DNA of 55,632 nt, from IMG/VR virus record IMGVR_UViG_3300045006_000223, positions 1 through 55,632 of that record. One strand, 5' to 3'. Positions 1,099-54,481 of the stretch are shown here, piece after piece. The stretch comes from a virus. The notes under the pieces were generated by a model that saw nothing but the letters and a program-made list of their open reading frames with translations, was not told the origin of the DNA and made no database searches. Within the stretch, counting starts at the first letter, position 1. The number at the start of each line of letters is the position of its first letter. The position numbers were made by a program, and so were the translations under genes.

Positions 1099-1127
1099 AT
1101 TATACGGGCAAGCGTGTAAAAGTTCAA
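1099..1127 (-). promoter_or_regulatory. Sigma70-like promoter for the minus fibre genes
   Basis: On the minus strand: TTGAAC, 17 nt spacer, TATAAT. This is a near-consensus promoter reading toward the GTG at 1021. Confidence 0.7.
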
Positions 1128-1172
1128 CATACAAGAACATAGAAAGTTCCTCATGAAAACTGCAAACAGCAG

Positions 1173-1201
1173 TTGCATATTTATAAGTATCGTGTTAAAT
1201 T
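1173..1201 (+). promoter_or_regulatory. Sigma70-like promoter for the plus-strand block
   Basis: TTGCAT, 17 nt spacer, TAAATT, 45 nt upstream of the ATG at 1246. An inverted repeat AACTGC/GCAGTT (1159-1175) overlaps the -35 box and could be an operator. Confidence 0.55.
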
Positions 1202-1245
1202 TAACCAACCGCGTAGCGGATGGAAAACAAATCAAGGAGCACATC

Positions 1246-1482
1246 ATGCCCAAGAACAAGATCGAAACCGGAACCGAGGCCGTCTACACCAACCACGGCC
1301 AGACCTTCGCCACCAAGAAGGACGCCGACAACTACGGCGTCATCGTCGCCAAGGTCCAGAGCTTCGCCGATGACAACGACCTCGACGAAGATTTCATCGA
1401 CAGCGCACTGGAAGCCTACCGGGCCGGCGTCTTCGCCCTGCCCAAGGCCACCCGCAAGCCCAAGGGCGACAGCGAGGACTGA
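1246..1482 (+). CDS. Small acidic hypothetical protein
   Basis: 78 aa, beginning MPKNKIETGTEAVYTNHGQT. ATG at 1246 is chosen over an upstream in-frame ATG at 1153 because AAGGAG lies 7 nt before it and the upstream part overlaps the promoter. The middle is acidic (DDNDLDEDFID) and the tail basic (KATRKPKGD). No family recognised. It is first in the plus block and is followed at once by a strong terminator, so it may be transcribed alone at a high level. Confidence 0.75.
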   Translation: MPKNKIETGTEAVYTNHGQTFATKKDADNYGVIVAKVQSFADDNDLDEDFIDSALEAYRAGVFALPKATRKPKGDSED

Positions 1483-1502
1483 GCCGCAACGAACCCGTGA
1501 AG

Positions 1503-1529
1503 CGCCCACCAATACCGGTGGGCGTTTTT
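1503..1529 (+). terminator. Rho-independent terminator
   Basis: Perfect 8-bp stem CGCCCACC/GGTGGGCG with a 6-nt loop, followed by TTTTT. It separates the 1246 gene from the genes after it. Confidence 0.85.
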
Positions 1530-1543
1530 ATCAGGAGACAAGC

Positions 1544-1945
1544 ATGGATAAACAATACAGGCCGGCACATCGGTTCATCGATCACGAGTACCTGCAAAAG
1601 CGCACAAGCCGAACCGTTCGCGCCGGCTACCAAGTTCCGAAGTGGATTTCTTTCTGCTCATGGGCGTTGTCACACGGTCTGCACGTGTTTATTCACGAAT
1701 CGCGCACGACCGTTTCCAAGTACGTTTATGTTTCCCAAGAACGAAACGGCCCGCAGTTCAAGGTTCGCTTTTCCAACCACAAACCGAGCTTTGCCAAAGA
1801 GTCTGCAGAAGACTGTGATTTTTTCGTCGGTGTGACAAACACCGGCGTGCGCACCACCGAGATGGCTGTCAATGCTGTGCTCGCATGGCTGTTTGCCGGG
1901 TCGACAGAAGAAAACTACACCGACCCGCGCCACGGAGGGCAGTGA
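1544..1945 (+). CDS. Hypothetical protein
   Basis: 133 aa with ATG at 1544 after CAGGAGACAAGC. Mixed composition with several aromatic residues (KWISFCSWALSHGLHVFIHE) and no recognised motif. The stop overlaps the next ATG (ATGA-type overlap at 1943-1947), so the two genes are probably translationally coupled. Confidence 0.75.
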   Translation: MDKQYRPAHRFIDHEYLQKRTSRTVRAGYQVPKWISFCSWALSHGLHVFIHESRTTVSKYVYVSQERNGPQFKVRFSNHKPSFAKESAEDCDFFVGVTNTGVRTTEMAVNAVLAWLFAGSTEENYTDPRHGGQ

Positions 1946-2193
1946 TGAAAAATCGCAGCTGTGGCAATTGCGCTTACCTGCTCGTGCCCTCAAGCCGTAA
2001 CCCGTGCCAGCTGTGCGACGACGAATCAGAATGGCTCCCTTGCGAACTGGAAAAGCTCAAAGCCCAGTGCGACGAGTTAATTGATGCCCTGGGCGATTGC
2101 GGGCATGGCGCATTGTACAGCGGCAAGCCAATCCACCCAGACTGCAAATCTTGCCAACTCGTCGCCAAAATACGCAATGAAGTTCCCAAGTAG
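1945..2193 (+). CDS. Small Cys-rich (zinc-ribbon-like) protein
   Basis: 82 aa. Two CxxC pairs near the N-terminus (CGNC and CQLC) and a later pattern C-GHG-----HPDC-SC suggest metal-binding knuckles, as in many small phage proteins of unknown role. It is coupled to the preceding gene by an ATGA overlap. It is the last native-looking gene before the cassette array; the first cassette junction is 25 nt after its stop. Confidence 0.7.
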   Translation: MKNRSCGNCAYLLVPSSRNPCQLCDDESEWLPCELEKLKAQCDELIDALGDCGHGALYSGKPIHPDCKSCQLVAKIRNEVPK

Positions 2194-2234
2194 ATTATGC
2201 GGATCGGGATATTCGATGTTCGGTGGACGCTCTG

Positions 2235-2255
2235 CGGCGTAACTGCGTTACACCG
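2235..2255 (+). promoter_or_regulatory. Cassette 1 leader hairpin
   Basis: CGGcGTAAC, loop TGC, GTTACaCCG: nine opposed positions with one mismatch. It lies between the cassette junction and the ATG at 2297. Confidence 0.6.
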
Positions 2256-2296
2256 ACAACGCGCCAAGTTTTTGGCACAGATTACAGGAGTAAAAG

Positions 2297-2533
2297 ATGT
2301 GGAACTCAATGCTGAATGAATTGAATGAACTGCACACGAGGCTTGAGCAAAAGCCAGATAGCGAAAAAATGGGCTATGCCTGTTGCCCAGGCGGCATATT
2401 GAATGCTTATCGAGAAGCTGACATTACTTTTGCTCAAGCAGTCAAAGCAATCGAAGATTGGGCATTGTCCCAAGGTGCCAAAAACACCGAACAACAGCTT
2501 CAAGCGGATAGCCCCGTTGGGCCTACCGCTTAA
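2297..2533 (+). CDS. Cassette 1 protein, hypothetical
   Basis: 78 aa, ATG at 2297 after ACAGGAGTAAAAG. Begins MWNSMLNELNELHTRLEQKP and is mostly helical in appearance; the C-terminal tail (QQLQADSPVGPTA) is encoded by the attC site, and the stop TAA lies in the attC L' box. This is typical of cassette ORFs. Function unknown. Confidence 0.7.
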   Translation: MWNSMLNELNELHTRLEQKPDSEKMGYACCPGGILNAYREADITFAQAVKAIEDWALSQGAKNTEQQLQADSPVGPTA

Positions 2534-2546
2534 CCAAATGTTCGGT
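2486..2546 (+). repeat. attC site 1
   Basis: R'' ACCGAAC (2486-2492) pairs perfectly with R' GTTCGGT (2540-2546). The inner arms GCTTCAAGCGG and CCGCTTAACC pair, with one extra C on the left arm, as expected for the extrahelical base of a folded attC. The junction is between G2540 and T2541. Confidence 0.85.
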
Positions 2547-2557
2547 GGACGCCTGCA

Positions 2558-2585
2558 CGGCGTAACCACTTCGTTTATTACGCCG
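2558..2585 (+). promoter_or_regulatory. Cassette 2 leader hairpin
   Basis: Perfect 8-bp stem CGGCGTAA/TTACGCCG with a 12-nt loop, upstream of the GGAGG and the ATG at 2616. Confidence 0.7.
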
Positions 2586-2615
2586 ACAGGCGCAGACCTT
2601 CGGCGGGGAGGATTT

Positions 2616-2813
2616 ATGGATGGGACTTGCGAATGGACAGAAGAAAAAGAATGGGGCGAATCCATGGGAACATGGGATACTGAATGTGGCAATGCTTTTA
2701 CCATAATTGACGGGACGCCCCAAGAAAATGGATTTAAGTTCTGTCTATATTGCGGAAAGAGCCTTATCGAATCCGCCGAAGGCACCGAACAAGCTAATCA
2801 ACCTGACTCGTAG
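2616..2813 (+). CDS. Cassette 2 protein: small zinc-ribbon-like protein
   Basis: 65 aa, ATG at 2616 after GGGGAGGATTT; an upstream in-frame ATG at 2403 would cross the junction. Pattern MDGTCEW, then ECGNAF, then GFKFCLYCGKSL: an aromatic-rich four-cysteine knuckle common in small phage and prophage proteins. It shares MDG-CEW and FKFC-YCG with cassette 6, so the array carries two related cassettes with different attC sites. The stop is inside attC 2. Function unknown. Confidence 0.75.
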   Translation: MDGTCEWTEEKEWGESMGTWDTECGNAFTIIDGTPQENGFKFCLYCGKSLIESAEGTEQANQPDS

Positions 2814-2841
2814 TAACTCGCAGGTTATCAGCACGTTAGAT
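2784..2841 (+). repeat. attC site 2
   Basis: R'' ACCGAAC (2784-2790) complements the start of its own cassette (GTTCGGT at 2540). R' at 2835-2841 is GTTAGAT. Inner arms CTAATCAACCTG and CAGGTTATCAG pair with the extra C on the left arm. Confidence 0.82.
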
Positions 2842-2850
2842 GGATTCTTG

Positions 2851-2877
2851 CCGCATATCGCTACGCTGGATATGCGG
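2851..2877 (+). promoter_or_regulatory. Cassette 3 leader hairpin
   Basis: Perfect 8-bp stem CCGCATAT/ATATGCGG with an 11-nt loop, 21 nt before the ATG at 2899. Confidence 0.7.
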
Positions 2878-2898
2878 ACGGCGAACAGGGGGTAGAGT

Positions 2899-3123
2899 AT
2901 GGATGGCATGATAAGAATAGAATCGGGTTATGGTGTTGAATTATATGTCCGCCTTGATCTTGCAAATAAAGTGAAAGCGTGTCCAAGGTGTCTTGGCAAT
3001 GGAAGGTTTTGGCATCAGACATTTTTAACCAATGGTCAGCTATATCCCTACGTGATATGGGGGAGTGTTTGCCCTGAATGTGGTGGTAATGGAATTAAGC
3101 ATCTAACAACTGCTTCAACCTGA
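2899..3123 (+). CDS. Cassette 3 protein with two CxxCxGxG knuckles
   Basis: 74 aa, ATG at 2899. Two DnaJ-type cysteine repeats, CPRCLGNG and CPECGGNG, about 35 residues apart, enough for one zinc site. The last residues (HLTTAST) and the stop are encoded by attC 3. Small proteins with this pair occur in many genomes without a known role; zinc binding is inferred. Confidence 0.72.
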   Translation: MDGMIRIESGYGVELYVRLDLANKVKACPRCLGNGRFWHQTFLTNGQLYPYVIWGSVCPECGGNGIKHLTTAST

Positions 3124-3155
3124 CACCTTCGGTGCAGGTTAAGCAAATGTTCGGC
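3101..3155 (+). repeat. attC site 3
   Basis: R'' ATCTAAC fits the RYYYAAC core and complements its own cassette start (GTTAGAT at 2835). Arms TGCTTCAACCTG and CAGGTTAAGCA pair with the extra C on the left. R' is GTTCGGC at 3149-3155. Confidence 0.87.
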
Positions 3156-3165
3156 GGACACTCCG

Positions 3166-3186
3166 CAACGTAACTGCGTCACGTTG
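3166..3186 (+). promoter_or_regulatory. Cassette 4 leader hairpin
   Basis: Perfect 6-bp stem CAACGT/ACGTTG around the loop AACTGCGTC, the same loop as in cassette 6 but with a different stem sequence. Confidence 0.65.
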
Positions 3187-3209
3187 ACTGCGTGCGAAAG
3201 GAAACAAGA

Positions 3210-3488
3210 ATGATTAACTTTTTAAAAGCAAATCCGTTTGAAGTTGATAGCATGGCCTATAAAATAGACGGATATTTTATACCAAATTACACGGGCAATA
3301 AAACCAAAGAAGAAGAGTTTGAACGCGCAAAAAAGGAGCTATTGGGCCACCTTCGACGGCAATTGGAAATAGCCGAGCAGATGCCGTTTGATATATTTAT
3401 TAAACAAAAATCTGTTTCTTTCTCAACAAAACAATATCGGAATGACGCCGAACAAGGCGTTCAAGTGGACGGCAAAGCCGCCACTTAA
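3210..3488 (+). CDS. Cassette 4 protein, hypothetical
   Basis: 92 aa, ATG at 3210 after GAAAGGAAACAAG; an in-frame ATG at 3192 lies before the ribosome site and is rejected. Charged helical middle (EEEFERAKKELLGHLRRQLE). The C-terminal part EQGVQVDGKAAT and the stop are encoded in attC 4. No family recognised. Confidence 0.7.
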   Translation: MINFLKANPFEVDSMAYKIDGYFIPNYTGNKTKEEEFERAKKELLGHLRRQLEIAEQMPFDIFIKQKSVSFSTKQYRNDAEQGVQVDGKAAT

Positions 3489-3501
3489 CTTAATGTTAGG
3501 T
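3447..3501 (+). repeat. attC site 4
   Basis: R'' GCCGAAC complements its own cassette start (GTTCGGC at 3149) exactly. Arms GTTCAAGTGG and CCACTTAAC pair with the extra C. R' is GTTAGGT at 3495-3501. Confidence 0.85.
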
Positions 3502-3511
3502 TGACAAACAA

Positions 3512-3538
3512 CCAGATAAGCCAAATGCGCTTATCTGG
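3512..3538 (+). promoter_or_regulatory. Cassette 5 leader hairpin
   Basis: Perfect 9-bp stem CCAGATAAG/CTTATCTGG with a 9-nt loop, unrelated in sequence to the other leaders but in the same place. Confidence 0.7.
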
Positions 3539-3560
3539 ATAATTTGCAAAGGAGGTTTTT

Positions 3561-3794
3561 ATGACAGTAGGTGATTTGATAAATAAACTCTCGGCGTTTG
3601 ATGCCAGAACTGAGATTACTATACTTGACGGGTTTAATGGTGGTGGCATACCACGAACCATAAATTTTGGCCCTATTTTGTTCGATCCTCAAGATAAAGA
3701 GCGTACTTTCAATGGAGATGAAATGCAGGACTACTCAGACTTAGACACTCCAAGTGGTCAAAAAATTATTGTAATGGGTTACGGCTCTTATTAA
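3561..3794 (+). CDS. Cassette 5 protein, hypothetical
   Basis: 77 aa, ATG at 3561 after AAAGGAGGTTTTT, a strong site. Begins MTVGDLINKLSAFDARTEIT followed by a glycine-rich turn (DGFNGGG), a layout seen in small bacterial and phage proteins where a helix is followed by a beta sheet. Unlike the other cassettes, its stop precedes the attC site. Function unknown. Confidence 0.72.
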   Translation: MTVGDLINKLSAFDARTEITILDGFNGGGIPRTINFGPILFDPQDKERTFNGDEMQDYSDLDTPSGQKIIVMGYGSY

Positions 3795-3798
3795 GGAA

Positions 3799-3862
3799 GC
3801 CTAACAACTGCTTCAACCTGACTCAACGCAGTAGCGTTTCGCAGGTTAAGCAAATGTTAGCC
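3799..3862 (+). repeat. attC site 5
   Basis: R'' GCCTAAC is the classical core. R' GTTAGCC is at 3856-3862. Arms TGCTTCAACCTG and CAGGTTAAGCA are the same as in attC 3, with the extra C. The central loop differs from attC 3. Confidence 0.87.
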
Positions 3863-3873
3863 AGATCGGCGCG

Positions 3874-3894
3874 CCGCATAACTGCGTCATGCGG
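3874..3894 (+). promoter_or_regulatory. Cassette 6 leader hairpin
   Basis: Perfect 6-bp stem CCGCAT/ATGCGG around the loop AACTGCGTC shared with cassette 4. Confidence 0.65.
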
Positions 3895-3926
3895 ACGGTC
3901 AACTAAACCGCCCGAAAGGAAGTTTT

Positions 3927-4133
3927 ATGGACGGAAAATGCGAATGGTTGCGCCAGTTTGACGGCCATTTTGCCATTGGTTGCGTTGGCGAAACTGGTGA
4001 ACGGGCAAATGGTAATTTCAAACGTACAAACGACGGTTTGGACGCAAAATGGGATTTTAAGTTTTGCCCCTACTGCGGTCGGGAAATAAAAGTCGTTTCA
4101 ACCGGGCGGCGTCGAACAAAGGTTTCAACCTGA
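3927..4133 (+). CDS. Cassette 6 protein: small zinc-ribbon-like protein
   Basis: 68 aa, ATG at 3927 after GAAAGGAAGTTTT. MDGKCEW, an internal Cys, then DFKFCPYCGREIKV: same family as the cassette 2 product. The C-terminal basic tail (TGRRRTKVST) is encoded by the attC. Function unknown; metal binding is inferred from the cysteine spacing. Confidence 0.75.
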   Translation: MDGKCEWLRQFDGHFAIGCVGETGERANGNFKRTNDGLDAKWDFKFCPYCGREIKVVSTGRRRTKVST

Positions 4134-4167
4134 TTCGCTACGCCCACAGGTTAAACCAATGTTCTAC
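4111..4167 (+). repeat. attC site 6 (array end)
   Basis: R'' GTCGAAC, R' GTTCTAC at 4161-4167. Arms GGTTTCAACCTG and CAGGTTAAACC pair with the extra C. R'' does not complement the start of this cassette (GTTAGCC), and the bases after the junction (TTCTAC) should be the original phage target. Confidence 0.8.
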
Positions 4168-4192
4168 AAGGATAAAATAAGAAGGAGGTAAT

Positions 4193-4819
4193 ATGGACCG
4201 CAAAACATGGACGTACCGGCCTGGTGTGTTCACAAGTAAGGACAAGACCGCTATTCGGGGCTTGGCCACCGTAGCGCCGAACGCTGCGCAGATATTCCTG
4301 ACCGGGGAAATAGCCACGGCAAGGCTGTCCGAAGATGACCGGTGGTCGTTGCTTTACGCGAACAACACCGTCGAGCACCCGCTGTTCGAGGAAACCGGGC
4401 AGGCGACGATCCGCATGATGCGCTTCGACGCTCGGCAGGTTTGGCCGGTGCTGTTGCAGGGCCAGCTCGTCAAGATGATGGTCCTGGAAGCCCGGCGGTT
4501 TGGTATCACCGACATGGCACTCACCAAGTTCTGCTTCTACGAAAGCCTGATCGACGTGGCCGGCCTGACGGACACATACGTCACCTATGACAGCCCGACC
4601 CCATCCACGGTCAAGGTGTACTTCAACGCCCTCACCATGTTCGGCAAGCCCATGCTGTGCGGCATCCCTGTATCATGCTTTTTTTCTGCCGACTTCGATC
4701 TGAAGGCTGACCGAGTGGCTGCCAGTCGTGATACACTGAAGGCGCGGGACATGGCCAGGGATAGTAGCCACTTTGCGCCGACCAGCTCCGAGGTGAATTT
4801 TCTGCTCCGGCTGAGTTAA
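4193..4819 (+). CDS. Hypothetical protein
   Basis: 208 aa, ATG at 4193 after GAAGGAGGTAAT. Alpha/beta-looking sequence without a recognised motif; the stretch CGIPVSCFFSADFDL carries the T7CTGC DNA motif (4679-4689). It is the first native gene after the cassette array and stands just before the RecB-like nuclease, so a role in recombination or early metabolism is possible but unsupported. Confidence 0.75.
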   Translation: MDRKTWTYRPGVFTSKDKTAIRGLATVAPNAAQIFLTGEIATARLSEDDRWSLLYANNTVEHPLFEETGQATIRMMRFDARQVWPVLLQGQLVKMMVLEARRFGITDMALTKFCFYESLIDVAGLTDTYVTYDSPTPSTVKVYFNALTMFGKPMLCGIPVSCFFSADFDLKADRVAASRDTLKARDMARDSSHFAPTSSEVNFLLRLS

Positions 4820-47840: not shown

Positions 47841-49718
47841 CTACTGCACCTTTGCACGGGCTTTTTGCACGCCCTGCTTCTTGCCGGCTCCGACCTTCTC
47901 GTGCTTCTTCTGTTCAAGCGGGTCGTCGTAGCTGTGCCCCTTCTTTTCCTTGTCGCCTGACTTCGTGGCCGGTTTGGGTGTTGCCCCTCCTGCCGCCGGT
48001 GCCTGGCCAGCAGTTTCTATCTGCTTGTCCATCAGCTCCATTTCCCTCTCATGCTTCTCGGTTTCGCGGGCGTCCTTCACCGCCTGGCGGGCACGGATGT
48101 TTTCCATCAGTTCCGGGCTGATGGTGAACTCGTCGTCCGAGAACTGCCGGCTGATGTCGAGCGCTGCGTCTTCCGGCAGCCCGCCTGCCACGAGGTCGAA
48201 GAAGCCCTTCGTGATCTTGCCGGCAATCTCGGCCTTGTCCTTGGCGTTGGTGATGCGCGGATTGTCGAACTCGATGGTGACGTAGGGCAGGGCTGCCAGC
48301 ACGTCGCGGCCAATACCGAGGGCATTGATGACCGCCAGCTGTGCAATAGGCTTCAACTGGTGCGCCACGTCGATGTGAATGTACCGCGTGCCTTCGGACT
48401 GTTTCTCGTAGGCGCTGTCGGTGGAGTCACCGGACGAGAACGCCCCGCGCTCGCTGGACCACAGCAGTTCTTCAGGGATGTTCGCCCTGGCCGCAGCGTC
48501 CTGTCGGATCAGGCGGATCAGCTCTGGCACCTGCTTGAAGTCGCGCTGGATGGCCTTCAAATCGCCGATCACGTCCAAGTTTATGGGGTTGTTGATTGAT
48601 GCCTGTCGCACACGGAAGGTTTCGTCGAAGTCAATATGGTCCATGATGTCTGCACCTTCAGTCGCCATCAGCCCATCGACGTTGAATGTTCTGGCCAGTA
48701 TCGACATCTGGTTGATCATGTTCGGCACGGCTGACATCACATTGTAGTAATTGAAAACCGCTTCAATCCAGCCTGGAATGTCCGAGATGCCCCAGCCGAG
48801 CGTCATCAGGTTGCCCCAGTAACCGGACTGTGGTGCTGTAACGATCCTGGCGCATCGTTCGCCGCGCACATCCGCGCCGAGGAACGGGATGTAGTAGTGT
48901 TCAGGGCTGAGAAAATCCTTGGCTGTGGGGTTCCAGTTCGGAATGTGCACTGTGTTCCACCTGTCAAGCGCCGTGTAATAGTCGACACAACCCTTGCCTA
49001 CGACCCCAAGCCGCGCAAGTGTGGAAATTGGCATATCCATCGTGCCGGGTGTGTCCTGCTTGAAGACGGGGTATAACAGTGCTCCACCGTGCGTAAGGCT
49101 TGCATTGATGGCCTCCGCAATCTTGTGTGCCAGCCCGGTGCTGACCATGCTCGCCGCGATCTTGTCGTGCTGATCAGGGGACAGCATCTTGCACCTGATC
49201 CTGACGCCGTTCAGCAGAATCGACTGGCTCTTCTTGCGGATGATGGTTTCCGGCAAGCCCTTCTGGCTGTAGATGGCTGCTGCCTCTGCTGGGCTGATCC
49301 ACACGTTCGGCACAACGCGGTTGTTGAGCGCCGGGTCTTGCCCATAGACGCCAGACTGGGTGGTGGTATTTGATATGCCGCCGGCATACCCGCCGCCAGG
49401 CACGATGTCCCGTGTGATGGCGTCCATCACACGCTCGGTTAGTGGCTGTTTTGTCCTGAAGTTGGTCATCACCGCCGGAATTAGCCTGGAACTCCGTTCT
49501 TTGATGTCCTGCAGGCTGTCCGGCCTGCCAAGTATTCTTGTAACATGATTCTTCTGCTCGTTTTCGATTATGTCATTCACCAGCTGCTGCTTCGACAGCG
49601 GCAGCGGCTTGAAGCCATGCACATCGTTTATGATGCGCTGCCCGTCGCGTGTCCGGCCGGTACTCGTCTTCTGCGAGTTGATGATTTGCCATACCTCACG
49701 CCACCACATTGAAGCCAT
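47841..49718 (-). CDS. Portal protein (DUF1073-like)
   Basis: 625 aa, ATG at 49718 after AAGGGAGGCAATC. Follows the large terminase. DIPGWIEAVFNYYNVMSAVPNMINQMSILARTFNVDGL, then NIPEELLWSSERGAFSSGDSTDSAYEKQ, is the typical DUF1073 portal core; the C-terminus is a Lys-rich disordered tail. It forms the dodecameric DNA entry ring. Confidence 0.82.
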   Translation of the reverse strand: MASMWWREVWQIINSQKTSTGRTRDGQRIINDVHGFKPLPLSKQQLVNDIIENEQKNHVTRILGRPDSLQDIKERSSRLIPAVMTNFRTKQPLTERVMDAITRDIVPGGGYAGGISNTTTQSGVYGQDPALNNRVVPNVWISPAEAAAIYSQKGLPETIIRKKSQSILLNGVRIRCKMLSPDQHDKIAASMVSTGLAHKIAEAINASLTHGGALLYPVFKQDTPGTMDMPISTLARLGVVGKGCVDYYTALDRWNTVHIPNWNPTAKDFLSPEHYYIPFLGADVRGERCARIVTAPQSGYWGNLMTLGWGISDIPGWIEAVFNYYNVMSAVPNMINQMSILARTFNVDGLMATEGADIMDHIDFDETFRVRQASINNPINLDVIGDLKAIQRDFKQVPELIRLIRQDAAARANIPEELLWSSERGAFSSGDSTDSAYEKQSEGTRYIHIDVAHQLKPIAQLAVINALGIGRDVLAALPYVTIEFDNPRITNAKDKAEIAGKITKGFFDLVAGGLPEDAALDISRQFSDDEFTISPELMENIRARQAVKDARETEKHEREMELMDKQIETAGQAPAAGGATPKPATKSGDKEKKGHSYDDPLEQKKHEKVGAGKKQGVQKARAKVQ

Positions 49719-54304: not shown

Positions 54305-54481
54305 ATGGTACGACAGACAGCGGGCGGCTATATGGCGACAGTCTACGGCATAAGCCGGACCGGTTTTGTCTCGGAGCTTGCCGCTTGGCAATGGATTGCC
54401 CAAGTAACGGGGCATAGCCTGTCATATGTGCGCGCTAACGCCAGTGGTAACTTGAGCAATTGCAAGCGCAAAAAATCGTAA
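54305..54481 (+). CDS. Small early-type protein
   Basis: 58 aa, ATG at 54305 after GCGAGGCCAAA (a leader shared with the 54556 gene). Begins MVRQTAGGYMATVYGISRTG, ends basic (NLSNCKRKKS). No family recognised. Single-gene unit behind element E4. Confidence 0.55.
   Translation: MVRQTAGGYMATVYGISRTGFVSELAAWQWIAQVTGHSLSYVRANASGNLSNCKRKKS

Follow-up and report, generated by a model that had tools for sequence, protein, structure and literature searches.

An integron-like gene cassette array headed by an attI-like site, and lacking an integrase gene, in a phage genome

The IMG/VR virus record IMGVR_UViG_3300045006_000223, analysed over its whole length of 55.6 kb and hereafter called the window, is a phage record carrying genes for a primase, helicases, DNA polymerase A (PolA), a topoisomerase, a terminase, a portal and a head protease. 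The 2219-4161 region of the window hosts six units of one gene each, in plus-strand orientation, which end in attC sites as integron gene cassettes do, and is headed by a 31-bp attI-like site starting at 2194. The array had been noticed in a first-pass annotation made from the sequence alone, and is here confirmed and extended. With a probability of roughly 0.7, the array would be an integron platform without an integrase, kept by phages and served in trans by integron integrases (IntI). According to this view, the platform lost, or never had, an integrase gene, and is made of the attI-like site plus six mobile cassettes of a phage-associated family. We infer that cassettes enter and leave as circles, through IntI-type recombination of an attC site, folded from the bottom strand, with attI or another attC; that the integrase comes from outside the phage, its likeliest source being an integron carried by the present host or by a previous one; and that the small accessory genes brought in by cassettes are the reason why the platform is retained. 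A conserved hairpin leader moves together with the cassettes as a module.

The six attC sites, all on the plus strand, have been identified by a covariance model (R2) trained on 17 attC sites taken from other phages, and no window sequence. Matches are attC1 at 2486-2546 (55.3 bits, E 4.1e-10), attC2 at 2784-2841 (44.2 bits, E 1.3e-7), attC3 at 3101-3155 (63.8 bits, E 4.7e-12), attC4 at 3447-3501 (48.8 bits, E 1.2e-8), attC5 at 3799-3862 (63.2 bits, E 6.4e-12) and attC6 at 4111-4167 (53.9 bits, E 8.3e-10); nothing more is found in the 55.6 kb at E<=10. The first-pass annotation had pointed to the same six sites. An independent script matching the arms, which took the place of a first crude detector too loose for use (5.7 matches per shuffled window), recovered five of the six, with no false site in the 55.6 kb and a mean of 0.25 sites per shuffled window. 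Every site features R'', L'', L' and R' segments together with a single extrahelical base, and its bottom strand adopts the expected fold. The extra C reported earlier on all left arms pairs in sequence with the extrahelical G which the bottom strand should expose once folded. Departures from Watson-Crick pairing in the arms, read on the coding strand, are A-C (10 cases) rather than G-T (2 cases), as expected for bottom-strand folding. A 60-base stretch of attC5 is identical in another viral contig (blastn 60/60, contig L005). The R' of attC6, the last site, reads GTTCTAC and makes the junction to phage DNA.

A second line of evidence comes from cassette ends. In cassettes 1 (2219-2540, with GTT crossover points at both ends), 2 (2541-2835), 3 (2836-3149) and 4 (3150-3495) the first bases are the exact complement of the R'' of the same cassette (4/4 each), as claimed by the first-pass annotation; the figure drops to 3/4 in cassette 5 (3496-3856), and to 2/4 in cassette 6 (3857-4161), the weakest unit. 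When the next cassette is used for comparison, the figure is 2/4, 1/4 and 2/4 for cassettes 2, 3 and 4, respectively. The pattern is general. Within phage arrays the start perfectly complements the own R'' in 30 of 43 cassettes, the permuted mean being 4.3 and the maximum 12 in 2000 permutations. When cassettes in which own and next starts differ are considered, the own R'' is matched in 27/38, the neighbouring one in 0/38. Bacterial arrays with the same attC type show the own-R'' complement in 25 of 27 cases. Such complementarity is the trace of a cassette that was once circular, and indicates that the arrays have undergone integrase-type recombination in the past.

The array had been thought to start at 2219. 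This left boundary has to be moved, as the attI-like site, ATTATGCGGATCGGGATATTCGAT-GTTCGGT, spans 2194-2224 on the plus strand and belongs to the structure. It comprises a direct box (TTATGC), a 6-nt spacer (GGATCG), an inverted box (GGATAT) and the crossover box GTTCGGT. A matrix derived from the sites of other phages scores it 31.4-31.6 bits, the next best position in the window being 5.2 bits, and the best of 20 shuffles 13.6 bits. The consensus upstream of first cassettes in different phages, [N]TTA(T/G)(A/G)C-NGA(A/T/C)NN-GY(A/C)TAA-N4-T-GTT(A/G)G, has the same layout: direct box, six-base spacer, inverted box and crossover box. The site heads arrays in about 24 further viral contigs, most with unrelated flanks; the 1.5 kb upstream are mostly unrelated among phages, and neighbouring phage genes differ in kind. 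Searching 2.9 million IMG/VR viral contigs for a degenerate version of the pattern returned 13 stretches, five of which in sequences new to the analysis, and a cassette of the same family directly follows in 13/13. The motif is also found in bacteria. In the Treponema metagenome-assembled genome (MAG) G043 it reads GTTATACGGATACGGGGAAGAGATGTTAGGT, and lies about 130 bases downstream of intI (TIGR02249, 424 bits), ahead of the first cassette. It occurs in 4 of 393 genomes of the spirochaete phylum, and in three of them (G043, G210 and G357) just past the end of the IntI gene. The attI-like reading is based on this recurrence, both in front of many arrays and beside bacterial intI. With respect to the phage attC clusters published so far, it looks like a new element. 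A few arrangements are worth reporting. A second attI copy in G043 (C45:21726-21754, locus L141) adjoins remnants of one intI gene. In the viral locus L098 (minus strand) two near-identical sites, at oriented positions 827 and 2223 of a single array region, are about 1.4 kb apart, and share 51-104 bp of flank. Two arrays, each with its own attI-like site, reside near both ends of the 40 kb contig IMGVR_UViG_3300033997_000192 (loci L005 and L002).

The presence of an attC cluster in a virulent phage had been presented as a novelty by the first-pass annotation. Such clusters are already known, because Qi et al. 2023 (PMC9892861) described 17 clusters of attC sites lacking an integrase (CALINs) in phage genomes, virulent phages included. 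Five of six attC sites tested in that work recombine with attI1 through IntI1, and sites from the Tetrasphaera jenkinsii phage TJE1 are among those found to do so (PMC9892861). TJE1, an isolated, virulent phage whose record coincides with our locus L090, carries an attI-like site, leaders and attC sites of the window type, and all the features of its cassettes (attI-like site, two-stem leader, attC type) are in turn found in the window. On these grounds TJE1, an experimentally studied phage, belongs to the same cassette family. The matching site in TJE1 reads GTTAGACCGATCGGTCCAACCAT-GTTGGAT; both the record and PMC9892861, where it is given as GTTAGACCGATCGGTCCAAC, name it a transcription terminator, and neither a leader nor a shared cassette family is described in that paper. 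In the HQ225832 record (L118) the annotated TJE1 terminator, at 49197-49217, gives a match to the attI-like site and adjoins the cassettes. By the same features, a family of such arrays is present in dozens of phage genomes, several of which mutually unrelated.

A third component of the family is a hairpin leader, located directly past R' and followed in nearly every cassette by the ribosome-binding site. The structure, made of two stems, opens with a short one in which a bulged A is invariant (NG-A-CNN); an internal loop, a 7-8 bp hairpin, the sequence GA(C/T)A and the other arm come next. Model R1, derived from 12 leaders of other phages and no window sequence, identifies on the plus strand the leaders of cassette 1 (2224-2265, E 7.5e-8), cassette 2 (2546-2594, E 3.8e-4), cassette 3 (2841-2887, E 2.6e-3) and cassette 5 (3501-3548, E 8.4e-11). 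Those of cassette 4 (3155-3196) and cassette 6 (3862-3910), also on the plus strand, have the same layout by eye; the former is not reported by R1, the latter yields just a low-scoring, displaced match (3892-3912, E 0.036), and its core resembles by eye the leaders of the viral loci L070 and L073. At E<=0.01 R1 detects leaders in 35 other viral contigs, some of which are near-duplicates. No leader has been found in 50 bacterial loci sharing this attC, in the 27 whole genomes from which these loci come (the positive control scoring 10/10 phages), or, using stricter filters and scoring a limited set of candidates, in 198 genomes of the spirochaete phylum; no leader-bearing array was found among the plasmids searched. 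At the start of bacterial cassettes there is a simple NGAC-GCC-TTCG-GGC hairpin, similar by eye to the outer stem of the phage leader. The leader looks like a new, phage-specific element. A weak leader-like match outside the array, at 54310-54347 (15.5 bits, E 0.11), is probably due to chance. No family reached the gathering score in an Rfam scan; at relaxed threshold the one match was a weak, full-length one of M23 RNA over the cassette-6 leader (3867-3919; 20.7 bits, the cut-off being 41.2; E 0.69), set aside as probably fortuitous.

Leader stems show strong covariation, with 290 double-change cells against 97 ± 8 in shuffled sets, and pairing at 90.5% against 24-42% when slid. Leaders at least 90% identical at different loci are followed by non-homologous open reading frames (ORFs) in 58 of 64 pairs, and in one cluster nine leaders precede seven unrelated groups of ORFs. 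The cassette-5 leader of the window is itself 98% identical to a leader preceding an unrelated ORF (L067). Since near-identical leaders precede unrelated ORFs, the leader, as attC, is a cassette module that does not belong to any particular gene. How it works can be read in two ways. As the ribosome-binding site follows it immediately in almost all cassettes, it may be an mRNA element (a translation enhancer, a determinant of mRNA stability or a protein-binding hairpin) with no role in recombination, a hypothesis whose chances fall just short of even. Stem P1 agrees with it, as on the coding strand G-T departures (10) are tolerated over A-C departures (3). Stem P2 does not, since A-C departures (21) exceed G-T ones (4), the same bias seen in attC arms. 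The bias of stem P2 hints at a DNA element folded from the bottom strand, and a role as RNA may be exerted as well.

The six ORFs of the window are small, and three are cysteine-rich. Cassette 1 encodes 78 aa (2297-2533), cassette 2 a Cys-rich product of 65 aa (2616-2813), cassette 3 a CxxC zinc-binding protein of 74 aa (2899-3123) which is weakly Lar/DnaJ-like, on weak matches, cassette 4 92 aa (3210-3488), cassette 5 77 aa (3561-3794), and cassette 6 68 aa (3927-4133), zinc-ribbon-like on weak matches. None has a confident family match, except that of cassette 2 with PHROG 10312 (E 4e-11), a family with no assigned function. Ten cassette proteins of the wider family include five DNA methyltransferases, one Mom-like DNA modification protein and one Lar-like restriction alleviation protein; the remainder are RtcB, an HNH endonuclease and one protein without assignment. 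The ten were chosen by eye and the sample is not random, therefore they show that such genes occur, and say nothing of their proportion. Across the family, cassettes seem often to carry anti-restriction or other counter-defence genes. The sharing of leader-bearing arrays with anti-restriction genes suggests that phages may trade counter-defence genes by means of an enzyme supplied by others. A broader picture can be drawn, in which integrons devoid of an integrase, each with an attI-like site of its own and a dedicated pool of counter-defence cassettes bearing the phage-specific leader, are kept up by many phages that are often unrelated, the integrases of the infected bacteria pass cassettes from one phage to another, and the leader is a further recombination element, folded from the bottom strand. 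This we consider tentative, and its odds lie clearly below even. If correct, phages would own a modular platform for gene exchange which borrows the integron machinery of the host, and a common pool of anti-restriction genes would be swapped, cassette by cassette, between unrelated phages. Phage CALINs would turn from chance captures into a maintained platform, a function would be suggested for the site published as a terminator, and a conserved structure, testable for a role in recombination or expression, would be added to the cassette.

The closest bacterial relatives are the Treponema-type chromosomal integrons (Wu et al. 2013, PMC3607928), which share the attC core, have cassettes pointing away from attI, and in three genomes carry the same attI motif just downstream of intI. 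Scanning GTDB genomes for the exact L'-R' half retrieved loci with arrays mostly from Treponema, Spirochaetes and Bacteroidota MAGs, and the attC core type can be assigned to integrons of spirochaetes (Treponema) and of other environmental bacteria. Differences concern the lack of intI in phage arrays, the cassette start, where a two-stem leader replaces the short hairpin of bacteria, and the central part of attC, mostly about 10-21 nt in phages and 55-90 nt in bacteria. The window site thus has the motif of Treponema-type attI, and lacks their position beside intI. A few phage contigs (L003 and L115) have long-type attC sites, therefore exchange with the bacterial pool seems to occur. In L115 (50-162) a long, bacterial-type attC is followed by a phage-type leader, an arrangement which points to the entry of bacterial cassettes, too, into phage arrays. 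The attI1 site of class 1 integrons also features a direct box, an inverted L box and an R box ending in G|TTAGGC, and differs in sequence, spacing and for having two direct-repeat boxes.

Compared with a complete integron, the window features cassettes with attC sites, and lacks intI. Searches for IntI (TIGR02249) and tyrosine recombinases (PF00589) found none in the window record. No IntI above the family cut-off was found in any of 39 phage records (the window and 38 others with such arrays), where two weak partial matches to generic tyrosine recombinases have been noticed. An integron-type array without an integrase in a virulent-looking phage, as initially described, is therefore well supported, and an integrase acting in trans is the simplest inference. 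The CALIN label given at first fits insofar as several attC sites (at least two close together) lie with no integrase nearby. It overlooks the conserved attI-like site at the head, attI not being part of the CALIN definition, and the phage-specific leader.

The lack of an integrase in all these records, and the decayed circle signatures of cassettes 5 and 6, may also suggest that the array is a passive CALIN, a piece of a bacterial array captured once by illegitimate recombination and now inert cargo. Passive capture has been considered for phage arrays by Qi et al. (PMC9892861). We regard it as unlikely for the window, because the same attI-like site heads arrays of otherwise unrelated phages, phage cassettes differ from bacterial ones in attC length and leader, and cassettes and leaders are common to several phages in different orders. 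Quite improbable is a shuffling of cassettes between phages independent of integrases, driven by homologous recombination or annealing at attC and leader repeats. Near-identical leaders before non-homologous ORFs and the attC5 stretch identical to another phage are compatible with it, and proteins with annealing activity are encoded by many phages, TJE1 for instance having an ERF protein; the process leaves unexplained both the complementarity of cassette starts to the own rather than the neighbouring R'' and the attI-like site. That the units are native, colinear phage genes with regulatory or RNA-processing hairpins merely resembling attC is highly improbable and already contradicted, since, although all units lie on the operon strand with ribosome-binding sites, the complete R''-L''-L'-R' architecture, extrahelical base included (E as low as 5e-12), the circle signature, the recognition by IntI1 of TJE1 sites of the same type (PMC9892861), and the lack of leader matches in ten syntenic relatives, where the locus is covered by a single stretch, negative for the attC model, all argue against it.

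Some observations weigh against a phage platform served by IntI in trans. Cassettes 5 and 6 lack a perfect circle signature. The attI-like site of the window is among the less regular ones, having 4/6 stem pairs and GTTCGGT instead of GTTAGGY, and the match to spirochaete attI is based on three genomes. The host of TJE1 is an actinobacterium, whereas the attI and attC types are spirochaete-like; the integrase may hence derive from a different host, or else the platform may be of ancient origin. Finally, contigs were found via attC or attI patterns, and this type of array is possibly over-represented; the counts given are thus not a measure of prevalence.

The array differs from its surroundings in composition, with a G+C content of 45.5% against 54.7% and 56.8% in the flanks, confirming that the units are A+T richer. 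A DNA search of the array against phages and plasmids gave no match. In the search for a cassette promoter (Pc), six sigma-70-like matches were found in the 1100-4400 interval, against 3.3 ± 2.3 expected, none being at the array head. An empty site in related phages, proposed by the first-pass annotation, was not found. Searching with the primase retrieved ten contigs related to the window phage at about 40% identity, which have no leader matches, yet also no recognisable homologues of the genes flanking the array; the gene 3' of the array retrieved no relatives.

Two minor features of this phage group can be added. Collagen-like Gly-Pro-Gln repeats on the minus strand (1-617) are probably part of a tail-fibre tip. 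In five relatives of the window phage (L142, L143, L145, L148 and L149) the helicase homologue is split near residue 225 by roughly 0.8 kb of sequence, which looks like an intein or an intron, whereas the helicase of the window is continuous.

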